A DNA stretch of 64,000 nucleotides from Shewanella mesophila. GTDB taxonomy: Bacteria; Pseudomonadota; Gammaproteobacteria; Enterobacterales; Shewanellaceae. The notes beneath the pieces were generated by a model. It searched no databases. It had not been told where the DNA came from and saw nothing but the letters and a program-made list of their open reading frames with translations. Made by a program: the position numbers and the translations under genes. Below, piece by piece: positions 8,418 through 54,100 of the stretch (positions are counted from its first letter, which is position 1; every line of letters starts with the position of its first letter). Location of the stretch: NCBI RefSeq assembly GCF_019457515.1, contig NZ_CP080421.1:1364001-1428000 (forward strand). Reading direction: 5' to 3'.

Positions 8418-9080
8418 GTGTCTTCTTTACCTGCTTTAGATAAATTTTTCGCGTTATACCACCGAAGCTATATGGAAAAGTTAGGTGAGTTACCTCGATA
8501 TTACCCACACGGTGAACACTCCAATTGTATTGTGGGAGAGTACCAACAGGGCGGGGATGCATCAGAGCCGGTTTCCGTGATATGGCAGGCGGTAGCGCGT
8601 CCAGTAAAAGGCACATTCGATAATATAGATCACGCCTTAGAGATGACATTGCATGGCGATATTAATCATCTGTATGGCGGTTATTTTTCAGCGCCATTAA
8701 TGTTTAGCTCTCAGTGGGGCGATGGCGAACTGCTACAGGTATGGAATGACACCGATTTTGAGTATTTGCAGCAGAACCTGATTGGTCACCTAATGATGAA
8801 GCAGAAGCTTAAGCAACCTGCTACATGGTTTATTGGTGTATTGGGTGAGGGCGATCAGATGTTGGTTGTCAATAATGACGATGGCTCGGTTTGGATTGAG
8901 ATCCCAGGTGAGCAGCCTGAAGTCAAGCTGGCTGAATCATTGAACGAGTTTATCAGCGGCTTAATCCCGCGGGTTTGCCCACCATCACTTGTTGTCGAAG
9001 AGTCGTTGCCGCACACTGACCATCCTGGCATTTGGCAGCGTTTAAAAATAATGTGGCAAAACTTGCTGGGTAAGCGTTAG
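8418..9080 (+). CDS. syd: SecY-interacting protein Syd
   Basis: Syd is a small cytoplasmic protein that binds the cytosolic loops of SecY and is thought to help monitor or remove faulty translocons. At 220 residues it is somewhat longer than the ~181-residue E. coli protein. The hallmark is the block around [20 protein letters not shown] (residues ~113-132), followed by a PATWFIG strand and EFISGLIPR in the C-terminal half. The extra ~25 C-terminal residues (ending [13 protein letters not shown]) are basic and amphipathic. The start is GTG at 8418. It is divergent from queF across only 45 bases, so their promoters must overlap. Confidence 0.93.
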
Positions 9081-11386: not shown

Positions 11387-12037
11387 ATGAATACCACTGC
11401 AAAGCAAACCACACTTGATAACTTGAAAGCGGTATATTTAACCGCTGAAGATTTACGGGTTGCCGCGTCAATTTTATATAACGCATATCATGATGATCCT
11501 TTCTTTATTGCGGCCCTTCATAAAGGCGATAAGGCTCAATATGAACAGAAGCTGAGAGGCGCAATTCGAGAGGAGCTGCATACATTGTGGCAAGAAGAGC
11601 AGGCTCTAATTGGTTTATTTGATGATCAACGACTGATAGGGTTAGCGTGCATAGTGACTCAACAAGTACCATTAGGTGAGGCTCGTTATTGGCATTGGCG
11701 TCTCAAAATGCTAATGAGTACCGGATGGCATTCAACACAAGCGCTGATGAAAAAAGAGGCATCTATACTAGAACATCTCCCGAGTACACAATGTGGTATT
11801 TTGCAATTTATTGCGCTGACTCCAATTGAGCAACACAAAGGTTTAGGCAGTCGCTTGGTTCAAGCTGTAATGAGTTGGTGCGATGAACAGCCTAAGCTTG
11901 ATGGTATAGGTGTGTATGTTACTCAAGAGAGTCACGTTCATCTGTTTTCAAAGCTAGGATTTGCAGCAATTGAAAAGCTGACTATTGGGAGTGTCGAAGG
12001 CGATCTTCTGTTTTATCGGAGTTGCGAGAGTGAATAA
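11387..12037 (+). CDS. GNAT-family N-acetyltransferase
   Basis: This is a 216-residue predicted acetyltransferase. An N-terminal helix pair (RVAASILYNAYHDDPFFIAAL) precedes a strand LIGLACIV, and the acetyl-CoA-binding core is seen as LQFIALTPIEQHKGLGSRLV (motif Q/RxxGxG/A as HKGLGS). A C-terminal strand LFSKLGFAAIEKL closes the fold. The start ATG follows AAGGAAA. Its stop overlaps the GTG of the downstream DUF962 gene. The substrate cannot be told from the sequence. Confidence 0.85.
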   Translation: MNTTAKQTTLDNLKAVYLTAEDLRVAASILYNAYHDDPFFIAALHKGDKAQYEQKLRGAIREELHTLWQEEQALIGLFDDQRLIGLACIVTQQVPLGEARYWHWRLKMLMSTGWHSTQALMKKEASILEHLPSTQCGILQFIALTPIEQHKGLGSRLVQAVMSWCDEQPKLDGIGVYVTQESHVHLFSKLGFAAIEKLTIGSVEGDLLFYRSCESE

Positions 12038-12344
12038 AAGGTTTCAAAATTTTTGGGAGTTTTATCCTTTTTATCTTTCGCAACATCAAGAACCTATGTG
12101 TAGATATTTGCATTATGTAGGCAGTTTACTTGTCATCAGTGTATTGATTTTATTTTGTGTTACGCAAGATTTTTGGTTACTGCTTCTAATGCCTATTTTA
12201 GGATACGGTTGTGCTTGGTTAGGTCATTTCTGTTTTGAACACAATCAACCTGCAACCTTCCAATATCCTTTGTATAGTTTTATCGGTGATTGGCTGATGT
12301 TTGCTCAATGGCTAGGAGCAATGATTCGAACGAAGGCCAACTAA
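12030..12344 (+). CDS. DUF962 / Mpo1-like membrane protein
   Basis: This is a 104-residue membrane protein of the DUF962 (YGL010w/Mpo1) family. It has the characteristic FWEFYPFYLSQHQEPMCRYL start, an HYVGS motif, two hydrophobic helices, and GHFCFEHNQPATFQYPLYSF followed by GDW. The conserved histidines are those thought to bind iron in yeast Mpo1, a fatty-acid alpha-dioxygenase; an equivalent reaction here is only inferred. I place the start at GTG 12030, which overlaps the acetyltransferase stop and has CGGAG upstream, rather than at 11985. Confidence 0.85.
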   Translation: MNKRFQNFWEFYPFYLSQHQEPMCRYLHYVGSLLVISVLILFCVTQDFWLLLLMPILGYGCAWLGHFCFEHNQPATFQYPLYSFIGDWLMFAQWLGAMIRTKAN

Positions 12345-12519: not shown

Positions 12520-12537
12520 TGTGAGAGATCTCTCACA
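12520..12537. promoter_or_regulatory. GacA/UvrY-type operator upstream of CsrB-like RNA 1
   Basis: TGTGAGAGATCTCTCACA is a perfect 18-base palindrome matching the TGTRAG-N6-CTYACA pattern bound by GacA/UvrY/VarA response regulators. It lies about 180 bases before the predicted RNA start, the kind of distance described for Gac upstream activating sequences. The same 16-base core recurs at 13161. Confidence 0.85.
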
Positions 12538-12706
12538 CTTATGTAAGTCATTCACTTGTTAATAACATGGTTTTAATTTGGATTTGAGTTATTCCTGTTT
12601 TATAACAATGGATTATGAATATTTGTTTCGTTTTTTGGCTTTTGCTGTTTTTGTTGCATTTTAGTTTGGCTGTAGATTGTTTGTTCTGTTCACATATACT
12701 AGTCAC

Positions 12707-12920
12707 ACGATATGGAATACCACGTAGGACGTGTGAGCCCCTTAAGGATTAGGGATATCAGTTAAGTGGATTAACTGACCATGGATGACAGACTAGGATG
12801 TTATAAGGATTGATGGGACTGGCAGGACGCTAGAGCATTATGGATGAAGCAGGGAGCATCTTGATAGCAGGAAGGCTAACAAAAGAGTACAAGAAGGCGC
12901 ACTTTTAAGTGCGCCTTTTT
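12707..12920 (+). ncRNA. csrB: CsrB-family CsrA-sequestering small RNA 1
   Basis: This is a non-coding RNA of roughly 214 nt predicted to bind and titrate the translational regulator CsrA. The segment carries 13 GGA triplets, mostly as AGGA or AAGGAT/TGGATG, and small inverted repeats that would put them in hairpin loops (for example GTTAAGTGGATTAAC). A candidate -10 (TATACT) is at 12695-12700, giving a start near 12707, and a strong intrinsic terminator closes it. A GacA/UvrY palindrome lies upstream. Like E. coli csrB it lies between syd and yqcC. Its 3' part (GCAGGGAGCA ... TAGCAGGA) resembles that of the second RNA, so the pair looks like a duplication. The exact 5' end is an estimate. 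Confidence 0.85.
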
Positions 12921-12925
12921 CTTTT
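12894..12925 (+). terminator. Intrinsic terminator of CsrB-like RNA 1
   Basis: The stem AAGGCGCAC/GTGCGCCTT with a TTTTAA loop is followed by TTTCTTTT. It is GC-rich and strong, and marks the 3' end of the RNA. Confidence 0.92.
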
Positions 12926-13160
12926 CAGCCCTAAGTTATCAACTTCAGTTAGTGGTTATCATCAATTAGACTTTGCCACGACATATCTGCATAAGATTTT
13001 TGCGATACGGGTCAATAGAACTTGATTGGCCAACAACAGACCTATCGATTGCTGGGTAAGCCGCCACAATTTGCAGCGCAGACAAGCCTTTTTATCTTGT
13101 TAGTAGGGTTCAAGTTAAAGATCAGATTCAGTGTTATCAAGGTGAATGCATTGGTCATAG

Positions 13161-13176
13161 GTGAGAGATCTCTCAC
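13161..13176. promoter_or_regulatory. GacA/UvrY-type operator upstream of CsrB-like RNA 2
   Basis: GTGAGAGATCTCTCAC is a perfect 16-base palindrome identical to the core of the box at 12521-12536. It is about 178 bases before the predicted start of the second RNA, nearly the same spacing as for RNA 1, which supports both promoter placements. Confidence 0.85.
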
Positions 13177-13345
13177 ATTGTCGTGAGACATGAGGTGATA
13201 CTGAGGTTTGATATCTCTGTATAGTCACCAAAAAATCTTTTTAAACAAATGCTTATGTTAAAGGTCTTCATCTGCTTATTTATTGCGAGATAAAACTTGT
13301 AGATGTGACGACATTAAATTGAAGCCAATGAAGTAACATTGATCA

Positions 13346-13736
13346 TGTTCAAGGATGAACTGGTCAGGATGACAGAGATGTTAACTAGGATTGTTAACAT
13401 AGAGGGAATTTCCAAAGGATAGGGTACTTAGGATGAGTACTAGTGACTAAGGAAGGCCAAATCTTCAAGGATGACATTTTACTGCCTAGGATGGTGGTAT
13501 ACACGGAGTGTATGGAAAGGAATCCCATGGAAGAGCTTGGACATGCTTTATGGATGAAGCAAACTTGGTAAAAGGATTGCCAAGTCAAGGGAAGGTACTT
13601 AGATACAAGGAAAAATGGAAACAGGGATGATGCAAGGAGCATAATCTTCGCAAGGATGGTGCAGGGAGCACAGTTATAGCAGGATGGCTTAACGGAAAGA
13701 TAGAAAGCGCGACTCTATTAGAGCCGCGCTTTTTCT
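13346..13736 (+). ncRNA. csrB: CsrB-family CsrA-sequestering small RNA 2
   Basis: This is a second predicted CsrA-binding RNA of about 390 nt, close to the length of E. coli CsrB. It contains 25 GGA triplets, many within short self-complementary stretches (GTTAACTAGGATTGTTAAC; GTACTTAGGATGAGTAC; CTTGGTAAAAGGATTGCCAAG), giving the typical chain of hairpins with GGA in the loop. A weak -10 (TAACAT at 13334-13339) gives the start; the terminator ends it at about 13736. A GacA/UvrY box lies ~178 bases upstream. No plausible protein is encoded on either strand here. Having two unequal copies in tandem suggests dose-graded or redundant control of CsrA. Confidence 0.87.
13704..13736 (+). terminator. 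Intrinsic terminator of CsrB-like RNA 2
   Basis: The arms AGCGCGACTC and GAGCCGCGCT (one mismatch) with a TATTA loop are followed by TTTTTCT. Confidence 0.9.
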
Positions 13737-13767
13737 ATATAAACTATTTTCTGAGGCATTATATTTT

Positions 13768-13890
13768 GCCTTACAGCCTTACAGCCTTACAGCCTTACAG
13801 CCTTACAGCCTTACAGCCTTACAGCCTTACAGCCTTACAGCCTTACAGCCTTACAGCCTTACAGCCTTACAGCCTTACAGCCTTACAGCC
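13768..13890. repeat. 8-bp tandem repeat, about 15 copies
   Basis: TTACAGCC is repeated about 15 times without visible variation over 123 bases. It begins ~30 bases past the CsrB-2 terminator and abuts the stop codon of the minus-strand DUF3301 gene, whose TAG merges with the first GGCTGTAA unit. Because 8 is not a multiple of 3, the plus strand is open in every frame and the minus strand has TAA in every frame; the plus-strand frame through it (13766-14035) is an artefact. Such a perfect short array is expected to vary in copy number. Confidence 0.97.
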
Positions 13891-14279
13891 TATTTACAAC
13901 TGCCGCTATTACAGCCCCCGCGACTGCCACAACCGCCACCAAACTTTCCCGTTGACTCCGGGGCTTCGAGCCACTCAGGTTCTGGGAAAATCGGCCATTG
14001 AATTTTCTGGATCTTTTTACCGTGCATCCAAATAGACGCTTTATATTGATTGATACCGTCAGTACTAAACTCTAATAAAAACTTGGCTTTCCATGTTAGT
14101 CCGCTGGTTCCTCCCACACTAGGGCGAGCGGATTCCATGGCGATAGCTAATAGTTGAACTCGTTGCTTTTTGCACTCGCTAGTGGCAAAAACACGGCTTA
14201 GTTCGGCCATTTGTCGTAGTTGCCAGAAGAAGGCGGCGATGATCACCAATCCCGCAATCAATAAAAAATCTGTCATCAT
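13890..14279 (-). CDS. DUF3301 membrane-anchored protein
   Basis: This 129-residue protein has one N-terminal membrane helix (DFLLIAGLVIIAAFFWQLRQ) and a DUF3301 domain (ECKKQRVQLLAIAMESARP, then a WKAKFLLEFSTDG strand). The last ~20 residues are glycine- and cysteine-rich (GGGCGSRGGCNSGSCK), an unusual tail that could bind metal. The start overlaps the stop of the DUF3549 gene (ATGA), so the two are co-translated. The function is unknown. Its 3' end runs directly into the 8-bp tandem repeat. Confidence 0.85.
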   Translation of the reverse strand: MMTDFLLIAGLVIIAAFFWQLRQMAELSRVFATSECKKQRVQLLAIAMESARPSVGGTSGLTWKAKFLLEFSTDGINQYKASIWMHGKKIQKIQWPIFPEPEWLEAPESTGKFGGGCGSRGGCNSGSCK

Positions 14280-15289: not shown

Positions 15290-15434
15290 AAGGATGCCGT
15301 TATGATAAGAGACAGATTTCAATGGGCGTTATTATAGGGAGAACTCTATTGAGATGGTATAATTTGGCGTAAATTAGCCGATATATCTGCTGGCATGCGG
15401 TATTTAGTGTCGATATTTATCCTTGGAAAGTGTC

Positions 15435-15755
15435 ATGTTGTATCTTTTTGTTGAAAAGCAGTTAGCGTTAATTGAGCTGGAGTTAAAATTTCTTGGATTG
15501 TGGGCCAGCGAATCTCCGTCAGTAGAAGCCTTAGCCGATCCCACGCCTTTTGCCTGTGAGTCGATGTCGTTTGAGCATTGGTTACAATTTATTTTGATCC
15601 CTAAAATGAGTGTATTAATTGAGCAGAGAGACTCGCTACCAAGTAATATTGCGCTGACCCCGATGGCTGAGCACCTGTGGCATCATCGCGCCGAAATGAG
15701 CAGATTAATATACCTTATTAACCAATTAGATGAGTGTTTGAGTGAACCAAGATAA
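15435..15755 (+). CDS. yqcC: YqcC family protein
   Basis: This is a 106-residue small helical protein of the YqcC/DUF446 family, recognised by the FEHWLQFILIPKM core and IALTPMAEHLW near the C-terminus. The ATG at 15435 follows GGAAAG. It overlaps truC by 14 bases, the same yqcC-truC-yqcA order as in E. coli. The role is unknown, perhaps linked to tRNA modification through its partner. Confidence 0.9.
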   Translation: MLYLFVEKQLALIELELKFLGLWASESPSVEALADPTPFACESMSFEHWLQFILIPKMSVLIEQRDSLPSNIALTPMAEHLWHHRAEMSRLIYLINQLDECLSEPR

Positions 15756-25230: not shown

Positions 25231-25443
25231 TTGCGCTGGTATTATGGTATAAAGCGCGCCGTTACGTTTGACTCTTGATACTTTGTCTTCTGACATTGAA
25301 TTTAAGAGTGGATGTGGCGGCCATTATACATGGCAATTACTAAATACTAAATCACACACGTATCGACACGTTCTCCGGGGTGCCTATTTAGGTCGGAGAT
25401 ATGGGATGCGTGGAGGTCTAACCCCTAATTTTAAGGTAATAAA
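25231..25443 (+). promoter_or_regulatory. rpsB promoter (extended -10) and long 5' leader
   Basis: TGGTATAAA at 25245-25253 is an extended -10 followed by the GC-rich discriminator GCGCGCC, the type described for stringently controlled rpsB promoters in gammaproteobacteria. Transcription from about 25260 gives a leader of ~180 nt. The part just before the gene (about 25350-25430) can fold and resembles the conserved rpsB leader at which ribosomal protein S2 is known to repress its own operon. No other gene is seen between map and rpsB. Confidence 0.65.
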
Positions 25444-50453: not shown

Positions 50454-51116
50454 ATGTTACAGCCACTAAAAATAATAATAGCTGATGACCATCCACTTTT
50501 TAGACAAGCATTAGTCAATATATTAACGTCTCAATTTCATGAGCTAACTATCTTCGAAGCGGAAACCATCGGCGAGCTTGATGAGATTTTGCTGCAACAT
50601 GATGATGCTGATCTCTTGCTGCTGGATCTTAATATTCCTAACGCACATGGTTTCAATACACTGGTTAATATTCGCAATACTTTTCCCCACATTGGAATTT
50701 TGGTGATCTCAGGCCAAGAGGATAAAGTCACCGTTGGCAAAAGCATTTCATTTGGTGCAGCAGGCTTTATTCCTAAATCCACCTCGGCCGATGAGATGCT
50801 TAAGGCGATAAAAGCCGTATTGGCGGGTCAGCAGTGGATCCCACAAGGCTGTGGCGATCTGACATCGGTTACCTTAGATTCGATGAGTAGCAAGATTGCT
50901 AGCTTATCGCCAAGACAACATAAAATATTAATGATGTTTGCCGATGGTTTGCTCAACAAACAGATAGCCTATGAGTTAGGTCTATCTGAAGCCACTATCA
51001 AGGCCCATGCTAGCGCTATCTTTCTTAAGCTTGGAGTTCATACTCGTACCCAAGCGGTCATCGCCATGAGTCAACTTTACCTCGATAAAACTCCACTGCT
51101 TGACGCCGTAGAATAA
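50454..51116 (+). CDS. LuxR/NarL-type response regulator, CrbR-like
   Basis: This is a 220-residue transcription regulator. The receiver domain has the acidic pair ADDHP, phosphoacceptor Asp58 in LLLLDLN and the lysine in GFIPKS; the LuxR-type HTH is SPRQHKILMMFADGLLNKQI followed by ELGLSEATIKAH. The start ATG 50454 follows GAGGGATC. It ends three bases from the convergent symporter-type hybrid kinase. In Vibrio CrbS/CrbR, and in Pseudomonas MxtR/ErdR, such a pair controls acetyl-CoA synthetase and acetate use, which is the basis for the name. Direct targets here are inferred. Confidence 0.88.
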   Translation: MLQPLKIIIADDHPLFRQALVNILTSQFHELTIFEAETIGELDEILLQHDDADLLLLDLNIPNAHGFNTLVNIRNTFPHIGILVISGQEDKVTVGKSISFGAAGFIPKSTSADEMLKAIKAVLAGQQWIPQGCGDLTSVTLDSMSSKIASLSPRQHKILMMFADGLLNKQIAYELGLSEATIKAHASAIFLKLGVHTRTQAVIAMSQLYLDKTPLLDAVE

Positions 51117-51119
51117 GCG

Positions 51120-54100
51120 CTATAGCTCAGTGCTAGCATAACTGCTCGGTGTCGCCGAGTAGTTATTGTGCAAGCTATTCGCTAAGGTAGCGCTCATAAC
51201 TGCTCTCAGCGCTATGGGTTTTATTATTTTGCGCAGGTAGCCATAACCCAATGATTTAGCTCGAAGCACTACACTTTCATCTATGGTTGCCGTGATCAAA
51301 ATAGCGGGCACGGGATGAGGTGATAGCTGCTCAATTTCGGTCATCAAGTCTAAACCGTTCAAGTTGTCATCAAGTTGGTAATCGACTAAAACAATATCGA
51401 TTTTCACGCCATGTTGTTTGAATAAGGCTTTGGCCTCGTCTGCAGATGCCGCGCTATAGACGTGACATTTCCAGCCATTAAGCAGCTCTTCCATTCCTGC
51501 AAGGACATTAGGATCGTTGTCGATACAAAGCACATGTACGCCATTTAAGGTGAGGATATCGGCTTTGGTTGTGACCAATTCTTGTGGTTTGGCGATAGCC
51601 GTTTTGACTTGTAAACTAAAAATACTGCCATGATTGACCTCGGAAGATAAGGTCAGTTGATGATGCAGTAAGCCGGTCAAACCTTGTGCGATATTAAGCC
51701 CTAAACCTAGACCATTGACTCCTTCGTGACCTGAGTGTTGTAAACGGGTGAACTGCTCAAAAATAACCACCTGTTTGTCGGCGGGGATCCCTGGACCATT
51801 ATCAACCACCTGTATCAATATATCGCTCCCTTTTCGGCGACATCCGAGCACAATTTTTCCATCTCCTGCGTAGCGAAACGCATTGCTGACCAGGTTTTGT
51901 AAGATACGTCTTAACAATACCCTGTCGCTGCTGACCCAAATCGCGGTCTTAATCGATTTGAATTTGACCTTTGACGTCGTCGCCATGGCGCTAAACTCTT
52001 CGACTAAGGAATCGAGCACCTCTTGCAGTGGGAAGTCACATATCTCGGGCACTATGGTGCCGCTTTCTATTCGCGAGACTTCATTTAAGTCCAGTAACAG
52101 TTCATTGGCCACTTGCAGTGCATTATCGATATAGCCGATCTGCTGTTTTTGTTTCGTGGATAATTGACCGTTTTGCACGAAGGCCGACGAGAACAAGCGT
52201 GCCGCCGATAGGGGTTGCAGTAGATCATGGCTACAGGCTTTTAAATAGAGGCTTTTCTTTTGGTGCGCTTGCTCTACCTTCTGCAGTGCATCTGCGAGCT
52301 CTGCGTTTGACTGACCGAGCTGCAAGTTAGCTTGCTCGAGCTTTTTAGTACGTTCATAGACGCGCGCTTCGAGATCCAGATTCTTCTCTTTAAGCAGTTT
52401 TTCAGCCTCTCGATACATGGTGATATCGGAAAATATCATCACAAAACCGCCATCGGGGATGGGGTTGCCTTGGATGCGGATCGTTTTACCGTCAGGCTGA
52501 ATTCGCTCTGTGCTGTGACGACTACCTTGACGCAGAAAATCGAGGCGACGCTGCACTTGTTCATCGAGATTGGTGACGTAATGGTTGCCAACGCTCAAAT
52601 TATATTTAATCAGCTGGCTCACTGGGCAGCCAATATAGATGAGATCGTCCGGGTAGTTAAATAGGTTGAGATAATGCTGATTCCAGGCCACTAACTTGAG
52701 GTCACTGTCGATCACAGAGATCCCTTCACTGGCATTTTCAATGGCACTATGAAGTACCGAGCGACTGAACTCCATGCGATGGTTTGAGGCGACTTCCACT
52801 AATTGGGCGACGTCTTCAATGGCAATATCGCGGCCCTTTAATGCATAGGAGATCACTAAGCGCGCCGATGCCGACCCCATTACACTGGCGAGCATATTTT
52901 CGGTGTAAAAAATGAGTGCCTGATTGTGTGCATTCTTATCGACAATGGGTTGAGGCTGGCAAGAGAAGAAATTATAAAATCCTTGGGCGGCTTTATCTTT
53001 ACCTACAAACCTAGCGACTAATAGCTCCAGTTCGGTAGGATTGACGTGTTTAGGCACCTCTTGCTGCAATTTATCTAGCTCAGGTCGCTCTATAAAATGC
53101 GCGATCTGCATCTGCTCGTGTATGCTCTGACGGGTAAATGATGACACAAGCCAGATAGCCATGACATTGACAAACAGGCCGAGTAATGTGGCCATTGTTG
53201 TCATCGAGTATTCACTGCCTGCAAAAGGATGTGGGTATAAACCTAGCTGAGGTAACAGGTTGAGTGTCAGCCACAAACTAAAGCCAGAGGTGATGCCGAC
53301 CAGCACGCCGATTAAGGTCACCCTGCGCCATAAAAATGCAGCAAAAAGGGCGGGACCTATCTGAGCTATGGCACCGAAGGCGACCTCTCCTAGGGAGGCT
53401 AAGGTATCGGGCGGCGCAACGAGAAACATGCCATAGCTTAAGAAAATAACAAATAACACCAGTGCTTTACGGATATTCAGTAGGTGAGATCTAAACTTAT
53501 AGAAGTCGGCACTTTGAATATTGTTGATCTTAAAGAGTGTTGGAAATACCACTTCATTACTGAGCATGGTGCTCAGGGCGATGGTTGAGATGATCACCAT
53601 CGAACTTGCCGCAGAAATAGCCCCTAGAAAACTAAAGAGTCCTAACCAGATCTCGCCAGTAAAAGCGGGGAGAAATAGCACATAGGCATCACTCTTAAGC
53701 GAGTCACCGTAAAGGATATTGCCAGCTTGCCCAAGTGGGGTGGCAAAGAAGGCAAAAACCAAAATATAGAGCGGAAATGTCCAGCGGCTCCAGAGGGCAT
53801 GTTTTTGATCTTTAAGTTCGACGATTAATACCTGAAACTGTCTCGGCAGACAAAGAAATGCCGACATCACAATAAACAGCAAACCAAACATAGAGATAAG
53901 ATTGGGATAGGTAAACTGCATGGTAATGGGGGACGCTTCGCTGGCCTTACGCCAAATATCCAGAGGTGAATCAAACAGGTAAAAAGAGACAAATATGCCG
54001 ATAGTCAGGTAGGCGATAACTTTGACAAAAGACTCAAAGGCAATCGCCAGCATCATCCCCGGATGACGCTCGGTAACATCGATGGCGCGTACCCCAAAAA

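Follow-up and report, generated by a model that had tools for sequence, protein, structure and literature searches.

Tandem csrB genes of unequal length in Shewanella mesophila, members of a genus-wide pair with variable GGA content

Two non-coding, GGA-rich units follow each other in the same orientation on the + strand of the Shewanella mesophila DNA analysed here (a stretch of 64,000 nucleotides, called the window from now on). With a probability of about 0.93, these units are the tandem csrB genes of the csrB1/csrB2 pair known from Shewanella; judging from their sequences, each one is predicted to be activated by phosphorylated UvrY and to produce an RNA that sequesters CsrA. The csrB pair itself is already known. 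The new aspects are the first unit, which is the shortest measured in the genus survey, and the giant units enlarged by tandem modules in related species. The features of the locus are listed in Table 1.

Table 1. Features of the csrB locus in the window, and giant csrB units of related Shewanella (units 1 and 2 in order along the + strand; energies are those of the terminator hairpins).
Feature	Position	Strand	Details
syd	8418-9080		Pfam Syd, 203 bits
Mpo1-like gene, left neighbour	11985..12344	+	Pfam PF06127, 125 bits; listed ORF, probable start further in
UvrY/GacA-type palindrome, unit 1	12520..12537	+	TGTGAGAGATCTCTCACA
Predicted -10, unit 1	12695..12700	+	TATACT; aligned in window and four nearest two-unit relatives
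csrB unit 1 (predicted ends)	12707..12924	+	218 nt, 13 GGA; RF00018 match 12683-12926
Conserved 3' block, unit 1	12842..12877	+	GGATGAAGCAGGGAGCA...TAGCAGGAAGGCT; present in Rfam consensus
Intrinsic terminator, unit 1	12891..12920	+	arms 12891-12904/12907-12920, -17.6 kcal/mol, U-tract after
UvrY/GacA-type palindrome, unit 2	13160..13177	+	GGTGAGAGATCTCTCACA
Predicted -10, unit 2	13334..13339	+	TAACAT; aligned with TAGAAT/TACAAT before GTTCA(A/G)GGA in four relatives
csrB unit 2 (predicted ends)	13347..13734	+	388 nt, 25 GGA; RF00018 match 13406-13740
Conserved 3' block, unit 2	13625..13689	+	contains element repeated at 29-nt spacing
Intrinsic terminator, unit 2	13704..13734	+	arms 13704-13717/13719-13732, -15.6 kcal/mol, U-tract
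DUF3301 gene, right neighbour	13890..14279	-	Pfam PF11743, 89.6 bits
yqcC	15423-15755		
Giant unit 2, L133	palindrome at 0-based 4081	+	8.9 copies of 84 nt; 1111 nt, 83 GGA
Giant unit, L222 (Shewanella sp. UCD-KL12)			5.8 copies of 81 nt; 850 nt
Giant unit, L129			4.7 copies of 97 nt
Giant unit, L216 (S. benthica DSM 8812)			3.8 copies of 97 nt
Giant unit, L213 (S. canadensis)			3.7 copies of 120 nt

The original prediction described non-coding units of about 214 and 390 nt with 13 and 25 GGA triplets, and a recount of the letters gave the same numbers over 12711-12924 (214 nt) and, more widely, over 13340-13740. Unit starts were set 187 nt downstream of the palindromes, so that starts, like ends, are predicted positions. 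The two densest 200-nt segments and the two densest 400-nt segments of the + strand in terms of GGA are those of units 1 and 2; the unit regions contain 16 and 13 GGA per 200 nt, against a mean of 1.9 (sd 1.64) for this strand over the 64 kb, which means that the clusters are not due to chance. The sole listed frame of at least 60 aa inside the units is an 82-aa frame on the minus strand across unit 2, and the length of the units differs widely among related genomes, which speaks against a conserved reading frame.

The assignment to the CsrB family, already made in the original prediction, is supported by covariance scores, by GGA-bearing loops, by the palindromes and by the locus. Using the Rfam model RF00018, unit 1 (56.9 bits, E 2.9e-14) scores higher than unit 2 (30.1 bits, E 3.8e-6). 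Both are under the gathering score of the model (71 bits), and consequently a standard Rfam scan lists neither of them. Scores below this cut-off are usual for Shewanella, since 124 of 129 genomes (window genome included) match at E<=0.01 and only six pass it, the other 118 matching genomes staying below; at its cut-off the model mostly misses the csrB pair of this genus. The third RF00018 hit of the window genome (E 5.0, L143) has no GGA cluster and was rejected as a third csrB. A search of the plasmid collection gave no match. Apart from csrB, a t44 RNA at 25335-25422 (78.3 bits) is the sole gathering-level Rfam match of the window.

The genome also encodes the proteins of the regulatory circuit: CsrA, with one gene copy (92.5 bits, over the curated cut-off), UvrY (416.8 bits, cut-off 280, intact 216-aa frame), BarA (1362 bits, cut-off 890) and CsrD (850.9 bits, cut-off 663). 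In the window itself, a response-regulator frame at 50469-52343 weakly resembles UvrY (78.9 bits); next to it, the opposite strand matches the BarA kinase model. According to the mechanism proposed, phosphorylated UvrY would activate both promoters, each of them through its own upstream palindrome; each RNA would then bind CsrA dimers at GGA-bearing hairpin loops, thus freeing CsrA-repressed mRNAs; finally, CsrD and RNase E would terminate the signal by RNA decay. From the GGA counts (13 versus 25), one molecule of unit 1 RNA is predicted to bind about half as much CsrA as one of unit 2. By analogy with S. oneidensis, both units of S. mesophila may be expected to be transcribed under the control of BarA/UvrY and to relieve CsrA repression.

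The gene order around the units is queF, syd, DUF2310, an ORF, DUF3192, DUF2789, GNAT, Mpo1-like, unit 1, unit 2, DUF3301, DUF3549, yqcC and truC, and the part from GNAT to truC is found in the window and in many relatives. The location between syd and yqcC that had been predicted is thus right in broad terms, but the immediate neighbours are the Mpo1-like and DUF3301 genes: six genes or ORFs separate syd from the units and two separate the units from yqcC. The proposal of an E. coli-type csrB locus finds support in PMC3171408 and PMC4682653 and in a locus from outside the genus (L208), where one GGA cluster lies between syd and yqcC in a syd, yqcC-truC neighbourhood. Between the terminator of unit 2 and the DUF3301 gene there is a perfect repeat of 15.5 copies of GCCTTACA (13768-13891). 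When 93 such intervals were scanned, the same repeat was seen at the equivalent place in L082 (9.8 copies) and L133 (5.1 copies), and other short repeats fill the interval in L104, L122 and L125. This interval looks like a hypervariable tract.

Both units are preceded by a UvrY/GacA-type palindrome, and an extra half-site, TGTAAG (12542-12547), stands beside that of unit 1. With up to one mismatch, the 16-base palindrome core occurs only twice in the 4.32-Mb genome, at units 1 and 2, while the reversed pattern used as control gave 0 matches in the whole genome. This genome-wide count is a stronger test than shuffling the window, where the palindrome pattern with one mismatch gives two matches in 8 of 100 shuffles. 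The distance from palindrome to first GGA is almost the same in unit 1 (194 nt) and unit 2 (193 nt). Among paired loci, window included, it measures 193-195 nt in 60 of 87 downstream units and 181-205 nt in 85; upstream units are more variable (7 and 46 of 87, respectively). The E. coli csrB promoter has its UvrY-bound site, TGTGAGAGATCTCTTACA, centred at -183/-182 (PMC4682653), and in both window units the palindrome is located about 180 nt upstream of the predicted start, with the same spacing as in E. coli. A simple promoter scan detected no sigma-70 site at either predicted start. Candidate -10 elements were recognised by alignment with the four nearest two-unit relatives; in the window and these relatives, the RNA of unit 2 has GTTCA(A/G)GGA at the predicted start.

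The original prediction also stated that many GGA triplets are in hairpin loops, and computed folds agree with it: 5 of 13 in unit 1 and 11 of 25 in unit 2 occupy predicted loops, whereas the loop share in GGA-keeping shuffles is 0.09 and 0.10, respectively, and none of 150 shuffles reached the observed value for either unit. As for the share of unpaired GGA, unit 1 is unremarkable (17 of 150 shuffles equal or exceed it) and unit 2 is unusual (0 of 150). The fold of unit 1 (-61.7) is more stable than those of its shuffles (-50.2, sd 4.7). Besides, every one of the 30 downstream units folded had a higher loop share than the average of five shuffles of the same unit; these were the first 30 of the 76 shorter than 480 nt (86 downstream units in total; window unit included). 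The intrinsic terminator foreseen for each unit was confirmed as a hairpin followed by a U-tract; a simple terminator scan listed neither hairpin on the + strand and read that of unit 2 on the minus strand only.

The predicted 3' block common to both units is likewise real. Most Shewanella units have this block (68 of 84 upstream, 82 of 86 downstream). Of the 191 units, 167 contain GCANGGAGCA, at a median distance of 78 nt from their end, and in 166 it stands close to the 3' end. From these comparisons, the block is taken to be the CsrB family's own 3' end. As described for E. coli CsrB in PMC5027483, RNase E cleaves beyond the last CsrA sites and ahead of the terminator, and the last 107 nt contain the elements required for CsrD-dependent decay. 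By analogy, the retained 3' block would be the start site of RNase E/CsrD decay in Shewanella too.

The genus survey covered 104 Shewanella genomes, that is, the window genome and 103 of the 128 others in the RF00018 search, namely those whose best place was among the matches listed; among the 25 genomes outside it, five had no match at E<=0.01, and the loci of G085, G028 and G096 were briefly inspected. A unit was called when a recognised palindrome accompanied a GGA cluster, and both ends were found for 191 of 198 units; contig ends near the locus cost some units, and a weak terminator inflates L127_2 (654 nt). Eighty named loci overlap the surveyed genomes in species, so that they are not extra evidence, and some of their units were missed. 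The pair is ordinary for the genus: 93 genomes have two units, nine have one, a single genome has three, and G094, cut by a contig end, has none. In two of the genomes with one detected unit (G114 and G118) there is another GGA cluster for which no palindrome was recognised, and in L085, L128 and L136 a single unit lies between the Mpo1-like and DUF3301 genes. One Shewanella locus (L098, from G022) shows three csrB units in series.

The members of the pair come from separate places in six of the 93 two-unit genomes. In G051, G089, G032 and G024 a long distance on the same contig separates them; in G043 and G097 they are on two contigs, which may be due in part to a contig break. In five of these six, one unit is next to the Mpo1-like gene and the other next to DUF3301; in G024 one unit is by DUF3301 and the other has neither neighbour. 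In this genome, a 7.4-kb locus (L036, contig C1, 2828900-2836300) contains a csrB-like unit of 449 nt with 24 GGA and a UvrY-type palindrome, and none of the eleven usual neighbour genes searched for was found there. In eight further loci the gap between units is 1.5-5.6 kb, compared with a median of 97 nt over 84 loci. Adjacency of the units is therefore not needed.

Beyond the genus, 17 loci picked for their RF00018 hits were inspected. One locus of another family (L209) has queF, syd, DUF2310, DUF2789, GNAT, Mpo1-like, two GGA clusters (23 and 22 GGA), DUF3549, yqcC and truC; another from outside the genus (L202) has two GGA clusters between syd and DUF3549; and L193, from another genus of Shewanella's family, has two at the Mpo1/DUF3301 side, of which the covariance model found one. 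In L201 (G136), from another family of the order, five tandem GGA clusters are accompanied by five RF00018 hits. Tandem csrB thus exists in several families of the order.

Unit 1 of the window is the shortest of the 191 measured units, the next being 284 nt and the longest 1111 nt. Its counterparts in the four nearest two-unit relatives measure 351-376 nt, with alignable promoters, and in three of the four the 3' block can also be aligned with that of the window. For this reason unit 1 is most likely, on sequence grounds, a normal csrB that lost around 130-160 nt of its 5' body on the window lineage and kept its promoter and 3' end. The nearest relative (L119, 81% amino-acid identity in the flanks) has the sizes reversed, 376 nt with 18 GGA and 284 nt with 16 GGA. 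The two window RNAs total 38 GGA, a low value that is not the lowest of the pairs (range 34-107, median 45.5). Among 82 complete pairs the GGA-richer unit is the second in 47 and the first in 24, both being equal in 11, and no compensation between units was found (r 0.009 over the 82 pairs; 0.23 when the giants are left out).

The unit on the DUF3301 side is enlarged in a related clade by a tandem GGA module that starts around position 190-280, and the giant units of this side (L133, L129, L113/L216, L222 and L213) have 796-1111 nt and 49-83 GGA. The array is absent from the 534-nt unit of S. benthica KT99 (L221). A single module is predicted to form hairpins with GGA in the loops, and the fold of the largest RNA (L133) places 25 of 83 GGA in hairpin loops (0.30), against a mean of 0.09 and a maximum of 0.14 in eight shuffles. 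This 1.1-kb RNA, with up to 8.9 modules, carries nearly fourfold the 22 GGA motifs cited for E. coli CsrB in PMC11882849. No earlier description of csrB GGA-module arrays was found in the open-licence papers searched. The chances look balanced that Shewanella csrB is a fixed chassis (UvrY promoter and 3' decay block) in which the CsrA capacity changes quickly as GGA modules are gained and lost, with the 5' half lost in unit 1 (13 GGA) and arrays of an 81-130-nt module reaching 83 GGA in relatives. The natural series from 13 to 83 GGA, with similar promoters and 3' ends, would permit a direct test of sponge capacity versus sponge amount in the tuning of CsrA.

A less probable alternative is that the two promoters fire at different UvrY levels or phases, small and large sponges being added stepwise. 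Such a graded response is possible because csrB1 and csrB2 of S. oneidensis respond differently to growth phase: csrB1 varies with it while csrB2, around tenfold more abundant, stays level (PMC3171408). CsrB2 is moreover the stronger antagonist (PMC11045786), and the two promoters of the window differ outside the palindrome. On the other hand, the larger unit is not constant across the genus, and adjacency is lost in those relatives with distant or 1.5-5.6 kb spaced units. It is rather improbable that unit 1 is a decaying csrB remnant which adds little after the loss of its 5' body, leaving unit 2 as the functional one. Its extreme shortness and the relatives with a single unit between the Mpo1-like and DUF3301 genes would suit this explanation; nevertheless, unit 1 has its palindrome, -10, terminator and 3' block intact, its GGA loop share is above that of all 150 shuffles, its fold is stabler than theirs, and it is the unit with the higher score on the CsrB model.

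The pair is old. The nearest promoter in other genomes belongs to the same position for 83 of the 88 upstream units and for 82 of the 88 downstream ones, in a unit set that merges two versions of the unit finder; promoter likeness is 0.43 within a genome, 0.42 across positions between genomes and 0.45 for the same position. These values indicate that the pair is older than most of the surveyed species and has not been homogenised. In the promoter tree no single edge cleanly splits both positions (best 0.65), which leaves a single origin of the pair unproven. Duplication followed by divergence had been proposed from the common 3' block; this block, being in the Rfam consensus and in most units at both positions, is family-wide and consequently no sign of recent local duplication. 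Since the promoters moreover sort by position, a recent local duplication was rejected. That unit 2 arose from unit 1 in a recent Shewanella ancestor is thus highly improbable: the shared block and palindrome, and one locus (L081) whose promoters are 0.96 alike, as in a recent duplicate or conversion, would fit it, but in 165 of 176 cases the closest promoter of another species is the one at the same position, and paired GGA clusters exist outside the genus (L209; L193, at the Mpo1/DUF3301 side). For most of the genus, the locus indicates that two old sponge RNAs, each with a promoter of its own, set the global carbon-flow regulator CsrA.

The closest known system is that of S. oneidensis, in which csrB1 (420 bp) and csrB2 (421 bp; both predicted lengths) share one locus with a 1203-bp transposase gene between them. 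Northern, qRT-PCR and mutant analyses showed that both are transcribed and fall more than 100-fold without BarA or UvrY, and the genes lie side by side in other species, for example S. putrefaciens CN-32 (PMC3171408). Either RNA relieves CsrA repression, restoring siderophore synthesis (PMC11045786). The window pair is considered of a known kind because these genes, at the equivalent locus, were shown to be separately transcribed, UvrY-dependent and functional (PMC3171408; PMC11045786). One surveyed genome (G064) reproduces the arrangement and the transposase gene size published for S. oneidensis (PMC3171408), with units parted by a 1203-nt Mutator-type transposase gene in an equivalent gene order and a second unit of 425 nt. 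The likeness to the window comprises locus, order, a UvrY box for each gene and many GGA (PMC3171408; PMC11045786); the differences are in length, around 420 nt each versus 218 and 388 nt, and in the transposase, the window units being directly adjacent.

The E. coli csrB gene resembles the window units in the UvrY palindrome centred near -183 (PMC4682653), in the 3' GCAGGGAGCA block, which is in the Rfam consensus, in the stretch ahead of the terminator, and in the syd, yqcC-truC neighbourhood, as in L208. It differs in having one copy at this locus (L208), whereas the window has two, which several genes separate from syd and from yqcC. The second sRNA of E. coli, csrC, is at another locus. 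Vibrio species also have several csrB genes per genome with differing regulation, and one adjacent duplicate is described in A. salmonicida; their copies are mostly in different synteny groups, in contrast with the window, whose pair occupies one locus (PMC6262261).
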